This document shows positions 715 to 3,675 of a DNA stretch of 29,881 nucleotides, piece after piece (position 1 is the first letter of the stretch; every line of letters starts with the position of its first letter). Under the pieces are notes generated by a model. That model was not told the origin of the DNA. It ran no database searches and saw only the letters and a program-made list of their open reading frames with translations. The position numbers and the translations under genes are program-made. Source of the stretch: a virus; the IMG/VR virus record IMGVR_UViG_3300030103_004019, positions 1 through 29,881 of that record; one strand, 5' to 3'.

Positions 715-1653
715 ATGATAACCATTGGCAGCTGTTTCTCCGGAATAGGTGGCTTTGAGCTTGGACTTGAGCGAGCTATCCCTAACAGCACAACCATCTG
801 GCAGATTGAGCAGGACCCATTCTGCCAATCAGTGCTGGCACGCCACTGGCCATCAGCAGTGATTCATCAGGACATCAGGCAGGTATCCTCCAAGGTGCTT
901 CCATATGTTGACATTATGTGCGGGGGATTCCCCTGCCAAGACATCAGCATTGCAGGAAAACAGGAGGGAATCAATGGGAAAAAATCGGGTCTTTGGTGGG
1001 AGATGCACAGACTTATTGGTGAGATACGACCCAGAGTCATCGTGTTGGAGAACGTGGCTGCCATTATTCAAAATGGTCTCAGCACCGTATCAGAATCGCT
1101 GGCCCAACTCGGGTATGACCTTGAATGGCAGATTATATCAGCTAGACAATTTGGAGCCCCTCACATTAGAAAACGTTGGTTTGGCGTTGCCTACCCCAAC
1201 CACCAGAAACAATATGCTAAGCCCATCAATGCAAAAGTGGAGAGGGCACCAGAATCTGATGCAGCTTCTGCCTACCCCAACAGCCACAGAATATGGCTCA
1301 AACAACACAACCAGACCAAACAGCAGGAGAAAGAGACACAGCCTGCAGGCTTTGGGCAGATTGAATCTGCTGGATTCAATGGTGCTGCCCACTCCAACAG
1401 TGAGCACATCACGAAACAATCCAACATGCCCAGCAGTATGGCGCAGAGCACGGAATCTGAATGCAGCAGCAGCCAAGCTGGATGGATACACCCAGAAAAC
1501 TATTGGCACCAAAACCCGCCTAAACCCACGCTTTGTGACTTGGATGATGGGATTCCCAATCGGGTGGCTAGACTGAAAGCCCTTGGAAATGCTATTGTTC
1601 CACAATGCTCTCAATATATTGGCTCACAGATACTAAAGGCGGGAATAATATGA
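715..1653 (+). CDS. C5-cytosine DNA methyltransferase (Dcm family)
   Basis: It transfers a methyl group from S-adenosylmethionine to carbon 5 of cytosine in a target site, probably to shield phage DNA from host restriction. All main family motifs are visible: motif I SCFSGIGGFELGLE (6-19), the catalytic Cys74 in GFPCQDIS, ENV at 112-114, QFGAPHIRKRWF (145-156), and the C-terminal RLKALGNAIVPQ (about 286-297). At 312 residues it is a compact member. The target-recognition part (about 160-280) is odd: rich in Gln, Ser, Asn and Pro, with recurring AYPN/AHSN blocks, and it coincides with a second long frame (905-1576). It starts 1 base after the small terminase stop and ends in an ATGA overlap with the next gene. 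The enzyme family is certain; target site and role are inferred. Confidence 0.95.
   Translation: MITIGSCFSGIGGFELGLERAIPNSTTIWQIEQDPFCQSVLARHWPSAVIHQDIRQVSSKVLPYVDIMCGGFPCQDISIAGKQEGINGKKSGLWWEMHRLIGEIRPRVIVLENVAAIIQNGLSTVSESLAQLGYDLEWQIISARQFGAPHIRKRWFGVAYPNHQKQYAKPINAKVERAPESDAASAYPNSHRIWLKQHNQTKQQEKETQPAGFGQIESAGFNGAAHSNSEHITKQSNMPSSMAQSTESECSSSQAGWIHPENYWHQNPPKPTLCDLDDGIPNRVARLKALGNAIVPQCSQYIGSQILKAGII
905..1576 (+). CDS. Overprinted frame inside the cytosine methyltransferase (PTPT-repeat protein)
   Basis: A 223-codon frame lies wholly inside the methyltransferase gene, shifted +1. It starts at ATG 905 with AAGGTG seven bases upstream (892-897). The predicted product has its own pattern: GDSPAKTS near the N-terminus (the same DNA encodes the catalytic PCQDIS block of the enzyme), WPNSGMTLNGRLYQL near residues 70-85, three LPTPT blocks, and an end reading NPRFVTWMMGFPIGW, read from the DNA of the final methyltransferase motifs. 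From memory, database proteins with the same ordered motifs are found in many phages and bacteria next to or overlapping cytosine methyltransferases. Two readings remain: a real second protein, or a frame held open by the constraints on the enzyme. No function is assigned. Confidence 0.4.
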   Translation: MLTLCAGDSPAKTSALQENRRESMGKNRVFGGRCTDLLVRYDPESSCWRTWLPLFKMVSAPYQNRWPNSGMTLNGRLYQLDNLEPLTLENVGLALPTPTTRNNMLSPSMQKWRGHQNLMQLLPTPTATEYGSNNTTRPNSRRKRHSLQALGRLNLLDSMVLPTPTVSTSRNNPTCPAVWRRARNLNAAAAKLDGYTQKTIGTKTRLNPRFVTWMMGFPIGWLD

Positions 1654-2397: not shown

Positions 2398-3675
2398 TTG
2401 ACAACCAGAGAACACTTTTACGATCTACCGATTCCCCGGTTCCAATTACTCAAGGGTAACTGCCTTGAAACACTGAAGCAGATCCCTGACAACAGCATTG
2501 ACTCTGTGGTCTGTGATCCACCATATCACCTGCAGAGCATAGTCAAACGATTTAGCTCACCAACAGCAGCCGAGTCACAATTTGGCACTGATGGAGCCTA
2601 CCGTAGAATGAGCAAGGGGTTTATGGGCCAGAGCTGGGATGGTGGCCAAATAGCTTTTGAGACAGCAGTGTGGCTGGAATGCTATCGAGTGCTAAAGCCA
2701 GGAGGCCATCTGATAGCCTTTGGTGGAACCAGAACAATCCACCGGATCACCTGTGCCATTGAAGACTCAGGGTTTGACATCAGAGATCAGATCTGCTGGA
2801 TGCAGTTCCAAGGGTTCCCAAAGAGCTTGAACATTTCAATATCAATGGATAAACAGGCTGGCTTGATGGGGCCACGTGGGATTGGAGTCAAGCACATGAG
2901 TGGGCAGGAGCATTTAGTAAAGCCCCTCAGTCAACGTGATGGACAGCCAAGCCACAAGCCACTATCGCCAGAGGCCCAGAAATGGCAGGGCTGGGGCACA
3001 GCACTCAAGCCCAGCTATGAGCCAGCCATCTTGGCCAGAAAGCCCATCAGTGAGGCAAACATAGCTCAGAATGTGCTCAAGTGGGGCACAGGTGGAATCA
3101 ATGTGGATGCCTGTAGATTTGCTTATGGTGATCCGTGCTGGTTAGGGGATACTAGCAAAAAAGAACCAACCGAAAAAAAGGAATACATACCAAACAATAA
3201 AAATGCAGTTTATGGTGTGGGTATGGGTGGGGGAGAGCATACAGTCCATCAGTTAGGGCGATGGCCCGCCAACATCTATCAATGCCCCAAGCCACCCAGG
3301 AGTCAGAAAGAGGCAGGGCTGGAGCATCTAGAGAGCACCCCAGGCCACCAGGCTGTGGGGCGTGAGCCAGACACAGCTGGACTCAATAACCCCAGAGCTG
3401 GAGCAGGCAGAACAGCTGATGAGATAAAGAACATTCACCCCACAGTCAAGCCCATCAAGCTAATGAGATGGCTGGTCAGATTGGTGACACCACCAGGGGG
3501 CACAGTGCTGGACCCATTCCTGGGCTCTGGCACCACAGCAGCAGCAGCAATCCAGGAGGGTTTTGATGTCGTGGGCTGTGAACTAACTGAGAAGTATTGG
3601 CCCATCATTGAGGGCAGAACTGAGCACGCAATCAAGCAGTGGAAACAAGCCCACAGCCAAGTGACTTTGTTTTGA
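2398..3675 (+). CDS. DNA adenine-N6 / cytosine-N4 methyltransferase, beta class
   Basis: This 425-residue enzyme methylates an exocyclic amino group. The catalytic motif DPPY is at 40-43 and the S-adenosylmethionine motif DPFLGSGTT near the C-terminus at 372-380; catalytic motif first and cofactor motif last is the beta-class order. HPTVKP (347-352) and the FQGFPKSLNISISMDK segment in the middle are typical of phage members. The start is TTG at 2398, supported by AGGGAGG (2386-2392) five bases upstream; no upstream ATG is as well placed. The 3' end overlaps the large terminase gene by 37 bases. DPPY favours adenine-N6, but N4-cytosine cannot be excluded. Confidence 0.93.
   Translation: MTTREHFYDLPIPRFQLLKGNCLETLKQIPDNSIDSVVCDPPYHLQSIVKRFSSPTAAESQFGTDGAYRRMSKGFMGQSWDGGQIAFETAVWLECYRVLKPGGHLIAFGGTRTIHRITCAIEDSGFDIRDQICWMQFQGFPKSLNISISMDKQAGLMGPRGIGVKHMSGQEHLVKPLSQRDGQPSHKPLSPEAQKWQGWGTALKPSYEPAILARKPISEANIAQNVLKWGTGGINVDACRFAYGDPCWLGDTSKKEPTEKKEYIPNNKNAVYGVGMGGGEHTVHQLGRWPANIYQCPKPPRSQKEAGLEHLESTPGHQAVGREPDTAGLNNPRAGAGRTADEIKNIHPTVKPIKLMRWLVRLVTPPGGTVLDPFLGSGTTAAAAIQEGFDVVGCELTEKYWPIIEGRTEHAIKQWKQAHSQVTLF

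Follow-up and report, generated by a model that had tools for sequence, protein, structure and literature searches.

The locus studied here raises the question of whether a second open reading frame (ORF), overprinted on a viral cytosine methyltransferase (MTase) gene, encodes a protein and, if so, what this protein contributes. The stretch of DNA analysed (hereafter the window, 29,881 nucleotides, positions 1 to 29,881 of virus record IMGVR_UViG_3300030103_004019) carries the MTase gene between the small and large terminase genes, and the list of its ORFs contains, inside the MTase ORF (715-1653), a +1 ORF of 223 codons (905-1576). Three LPTPT blocks described in the original prediction were located at 1187, 1268, and 1385, as was an ordered motif end (NPRFVTWMMGFPIGW, 1523-1567), and the AYPN/AHSN of the recognition region are the LPTPT codons read in the enzyme frame. 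Two further features of the window are an antisense open frame of 158 codons (minus strand, 1138-1614) opposite the overlap region, and a second DNA MTase of the N4/N6 type (2398-3675) immediately before the large terminase gene. Based on the evidence below, we consider that the locus very probably specifies, through nested genes, a heterodimeric C5-cytosine DNA MTase, the subunits of which are termed alpha (enzyme frame) and beta (+1 frame) (Table 1).

Table 1 Features of the nested MTase locus and the evidence for each (window coordinates)
Feature	Position	Strand	Evidence
Alpha subunit gene, C5-cytosine MTase, motifs I-VIII and X, 312 aa	715..1653	+	Pfam, AlphaFold, Foldseek
Alpha motif I, FSGIGG	736..753	+	
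Upstream open part of the +1 ORF, probably outside translated beta	905..973	+	+1 stops in the matching stretch of relatives
Alpha motif IV, PCQDIS (catalytic Cys), bases common to +1 GDSPAKTS	931..948	+	
Shine-Dalgarno AGGAGG of the +1 gene	962..967	+	-10.8 kcal/mol
Predicted beta subunit gene, +1 frame, 200 aa, putative recognition region and motif IX	974..1576	+	PHROG 1008, stop tests, in-frame actinophage homologues
Alpha motif VI, ENV	1048..1056	+	
Alpha motif VIII region, GAPHIRKRWF	1153..1182	+	
Putative beta recognition cassette 1, LPTPTTRNNMLSPSMQKW...	1187..1267	+	ANQLAPSMxKxPGC type, found in 11 loci
Alpha linker between motifs VIII and X, predicted disordered, little conserved	1189..1540	+	pLDDT, aa differences
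Putative beta recognition cassette 2, LPTPTATEYGSN...	1268..1384	+	YGSN-type class by eye
Putative beta recognition cassette 3, LPTPTVSTSRNN...	1385..1519	+	
Beta motif IX, LNPRFVTWMMGFPIGWLD	1520..1573	+	Invariant residues, beta-profile alignment to single-chain MTases
Alpha motif X, ALGNAIVPQ	1579..1605	+	High-confidence helix in AlphaFold model

The +1 frame might be no more than a shadow of the enzyme, kept open by its amino acid conservation and codon bias with no protein being made; some of the +1 pattern is indeed dictated by motif-rich segments of the enzyme (GYDAEW, GAPH), and chance ORFs are longer at high GC. We find this scarcely credible, as stops in +1 are far fewer than when the enzyme gene is redrawn with synonymous codons. 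In the window, redraws following the gene's own codon usage kept the +1 frame stop-free over 905-1573 in 3 of 20,000 cases and over 974-1573 in 24 of 20,000, and within-gene codon permutation did so in 10 of 20,000. A tblastn search with the +1 product retrieved 89 phage records, and the LMGFPxGW motif lies in +1 relative to PCQDIS in 146 loci, which agrees with the supposition of the original prediction that the locus is widespread. These loci were mostly found through the +1 protein, and a scan of that kind is biased towards open +1 frames. A second selection test therefore took in loci (54 clusters) identified solely from the N-terminal 77 aa of the enzyme, which precede the overlap. With the MTase protein held fixed and codons redrawn by the gene's own usage, 3 stops were observed in the +1 frame across motifs IV-VIII vs 134 expected (all three in one locus) and 18 vs 104 in the recognition region (17 of them in another locus), i.e., 21 vs ~240 in total, with 20 of the 21 in two odd loci. 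The same clusters served as controls and behaved as expected, with 114 +1 stops vs 138 expected upstream of the overlap, and 133 vs 142 and 323 vs 321 in the third frame.

Substitution rates also turn over at the overlap. For enzyme codon positions 1/2/3 they are.203/.143/.491 upstream,.453/.308/.361 in the recognition region and.250/.123/.159 in the motif IX zone (84 disjoint pairs, their phylogenetic independence not being full), so that the fastest position is the third upstream and the first (the wobble position of the +1 frame) in the recognition region and motif IX. Third codon positions are slow only in the overlap, which again speaks against a mere shadow, and within the recognition region the pairs are less divergent in their +1 peptides (.466) than in the peptides of the enzyme frame (.556). 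Thus, the +1 frame is a real coding sequence and selection acts in both frames, as the original prediction had proposed; synonymous changes in the enzyme frame do not freely destroy the +1 frame across relatives. It could also be imagined that the MTase gene is dying, its recognition region displaced from the frame by a pair of ancient frameshifts, and a few loci do look broken (L199/L047 and L200 in frame 0, L214 in +1), possibly as inactive copies or through sequencing errors. However, both frames are open together in distant lineages and, when redraws preserve the +1 peptide, 84 and 121 stops are expected in frame 0 and none is observed (3 of the 146 loci, with frame-0 stops, were set aside), and we attach almost no credence to such a decay.

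The enzyme frame on its own appears to be an incomplete MTase. Alpha matches the Pfam DNA_methylase profile (PF00145, E=8.9e-49) but over profile positions 2-216 of 324 only, and in its AlphaFold model residues ~1-160 and ~280-310 are predicted at a pLDDT of about 90-98, and the ~100 residues that separate motif VIII from motif X are disordered, mostly at a pLDDT of about 40. The top Foldseek matches are structures of M.HhaI (rmsd 1.6-2.0 over ~165 residues), and both profile match and fold place alpha with the PF00145 large domain. Motifs I-VIII and X are found in this large polypeptide without motif IX. It therefore differs from a monomeric C5 MTase, in which motifs I-X stand in one frame (here motif IX is only in +1), and, with motif X in alpha, from AquI-type enzymes, where it is on the small polypeptide. 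Nor does the locus resemble an enzyme with an overprinted regulator, where the enzyme frame would be complete alone, as alpha has neither motif IX nor a folded small domain.

The missing part appears to lie in beta. Among 73 readable relatives, 68 carry motif IX solely in +1 and 3 solely in frame 0, and none has it in both frames. The end of the +1 product (LNPRFVTWMMGFPIGW) lines up with LTPxExxRLQGFPxxW of ordinary enzymes, and in beta motif IX the residues V, M, G, F, P, and W are invariant in 67 sequences. Three loci (L197, L208, and L249) have a classical motif IX in frame 0 and the +1 recognition region is absent from them, a pattern not expected of a shadow, while in L206 a textbook VRRLTPAECERLQGFPDGW stands in +1 and motif X in frame 0. 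PHROG 1008 matches the window's +1 product (E=4.7e-27), and it covers most of the length of beta (E=4e-24). No match to the +1 protein alone was found in Pfam (DNA_methylase included) or NCBIfam, a PDB sequence search with a C-terminal piece gave nothing useful, and the AlphaFold model of beta alone was poor (pLDDT 61), with no match in a fold search. Splicing beta into alpha in silico extended the Pfam match of the window protein to 2-323 of 324 (2-158 with shuffled beta), with a gain of only 2 bits, and it did not extend the match at two other loci, so little weight is given to it. Judging from sequence and position, we assign the target-recognition region and motif IX of a C5-cytosine MTase to beta.

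The most telling evidence is that of actinophages, whose MTases are of a different build. JoeyJr gp71 and GD43-6 gp22 (from a Mycobacterium abscessus prophage) are single-chain actinophage MTases that carry a recognition region of the form LPTPxAS...EWMMGWPxGW in frame, between motifs VIII and X. They are found by the beta profile (E=6e-9 and 8e-12, respectively) and, over the same interval, by PHROG 1008 (E=6e-65 and 7e-56), and the same reading being used in frame by actinophages is further evidence against a shadow. In RemusLoopin, AvatarAhPeg, and Embleya, the recognition region occupies a C-terminal ORF of its own, together with motif X. Single-chain and two-ORF relatives together score E=8e-7 to 8e-12 with the beta profile, which aligns beta motif IX to motif IX of the single-chain MTases, whereas no score is obtained for shuffled versions or for five alpha proteins. 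Beta might instead be an independent overprinted inhibitor, regulator or chaperone of the MTase that merely resembles a recognition part, and its N-terminal part over motifs IV-VIII, which is constrained and matches no known domain, would suit such a protein. We regard this as very improbable, as motif IX is absent from alpha exactly where it is present in beta, and beta-like sequence is integral to single-chain MTases. Among the roles that the original prediction offered, inhibitor or regulator are thus disfavoured and partner is right, because the +1 product would supply the enzyme's own missing part. Close relatives also differ by single frameshifts (L017 and L258/L259, phages Polka14, Inventum, and JoeyJr), so that annotations give this MTase as one gene in some cases and as two in others. 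Another locus (L242) has motif IX in +1, followed by a long AT-rich frame-0 extension with many +1 stops before motif X.

Where beta begins bears on how it would be made. The original prediction had it start at ATG 905 behind AAGGTG (892-897), a weak Shine-Dalgarno sequence (-3.9 kcal/mol), and this is probably wrong; ATG 974, behind the far stronger AGGAGG, is the likely start. Among the window's relatives, a start at codon +14/15 after PCQ is conserved, and in several of them a +1 stop separates the positions matching ATG 905 and ATG 974. GDSPAKTS and PCQDIS do share the same bases, as was claimed, but with the ATG 974 start conserved and the relatives' +1 stops upstream of it, GDSPAKTS probably lies outside beta, which would then be of ~200 aa. 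Elsewhere the +1 start is at -16 with AAGGAGG (a Firmicutes group) or at -25/-26 with GGAGG (some Alphaproteobacteria). Across 91 entries, some loci being counted in both sets, the mean Shine-Dalgarno energy of the best +1 start is -7.0 vs -3.9 kcal/mol in synonymous redraws (Wilcoxon 1e-14); for the window alone, its strength is not significant against redraws (p 0.17). A programmed frameshift after motif VIII into +1 could alternatively give a fused protein of motifs I-VIII, recognition region and motif IX, and the actinophage forms show an uninterrupted I-VIII/recognition/IX/X chain to be workable in other lineages. Yet the +1 frame is open and constrained across motifs IV-VIII, upstream of any shift (the 3 vs 134 stops above), internal starts with Shine-Dalgarno sequences are enriched (e.g., the AAGGAGG of the Firmicutes group), and the shifted product would stop short of motif X, all of which make a frameshift unlikely.

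We thus favour two nested genes. The enzyme frame (715-1653) would give alpha, i.e., motifs I-VIII, a long disordered linker and motif X, and a second ribosome site (AGGAGG 962-967, ATG 974) would start translation of beta in +1 (974-1576), bringing in the target-recognition region (with three LPTPT cassettes here) and motif IX. The two most likely assemble into one MTase, for the activity of which both would be needed, and this enzyme would presumably be the phage's own modification, protecting phage DNA from host restriction.

The recognition region of beta is built of segments opened by LPTP, 0-6 per locus and with a median of 36 residues (178 loci). Thirty-five pairs of these cassettes are >=60% identical though their alpha proteins are <45% identical, and similar cassettes often occur at different positions and beside different neighbours, a pattern that fits exchangeable recognition units. 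Such units are known from multispecific phage MTases. It is conceivable, although we would put it at somewhat below even chances, that beta is an array of swappable ~36-residue LPTP cassettes, each reading its own DNA sequence, and that the other frame only stays open as a disordered linker.

A second type of +1 ORF was also seen (PHROG 16143, CSLSDTLETGDLPQRFFLSATACAGILRRAEKRGKVLP, about 150-180 aa), overlapping MTase motifs IV-VIII in L266-L345 (e.g., L270:2335-2805) and in L197, L208, and L249. Motifs IV, IX, and X are all in frame 0 in 62 of 80 loci hosting it, and substitution rates for enzyme positions 1/2/3 turn over under this ORF (.221/.111/.178), going back to normal past it (.330/.270/.602). 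The EcoHK31I-type split (see below) does not explain it. In L206 (= L329) and L316, a SLSDILE-type +1 ORF extends through a motif IX of the classical sort, likewise in +1 (motif X of L206 is in frame 0), and these may possibly be intermediates between the two kinds of +1 ORF.

The closest known counterpart is M.EcoHK31I (YGGCCR), which PMC3404938 describes as an active enzyme with motifs I-VIII and X on a large polypeptide, to which the recognition domain is assigned, and motif IX on a small one; the title of Lee, Kam and Shaw 1995, a reference given there, states that both are required in vitro, and PMC3439449 calls the enzyme 'naturally split'. PMC3404938 also describes M.AquI (CYCGRG) as two polypeptides split I-VIII/IX-X. 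Alpha and beta of the window divide their motifs as M.EcoHK31I does, a likeness drawn from its published description, and the separate small ORF with a predicted motif IX, under selection and nested in another frame, is of the same kind. We place the locus with this known kind because M.EcoHK31I divides its motifs likewise and its small polypeptide is reportedly encoded in another frame inside the large one. The two differ in that the evidence here puts the recognition region in beta, and in that ours are mostly phage loci with 1-6 cassettes, with no restriction enzyme noticed in an unsystematic scan of the window. M.AquI is likewise a C5 MTase made of two polypeptides dividing the motifs, but motif X of the window is in alpha, the AquI form being seen in RemusLoopin gp34/gp35 and Embleya. 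M.HhaI shares the large-domain fold of alpha, and GD43-6 gp22 the cassettes and motif IX of beta, yet each is one chain in one frame. PHROG 1008 is labelled 'DNA methyltransferase', which hides a +1 product without motifs I-VIII. We found no description of the phage version in the open-access literature. The motif division itself is already known from M.EcoHK31I; the apparently new elements are how widely it occurs, the placing of the recognition region in beta, the cassettes, and the connections with two-ORF and one-chain forms.

The nested split is most likely the prevailing arrangement in a large clade of phages and prophages. To our knowledge, few overlapping genes have been proven to be under selection in both frames; this dual-frame locus, unlike most of them, is common, with >400 candidate loci among the viral matches listed and 173 in genomes. 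Its +1 gene is usually missed or misnamed in databases, and many 'hypothetical' and 'DNA methyltransferase' annotations are explained as one missing subunit; cloning the annotated gene alone would therefore probably yield a protein without activity. Set side by side, the nested, two-ORF, and one-chain arrangements show the path by which an enzyme comes apart and is joined again. If the cassettes are indeed swappable, the nested split would let phages re-target methylation cheaply, i.e., by multispecific enzymes with targets changed by cassette swaps.
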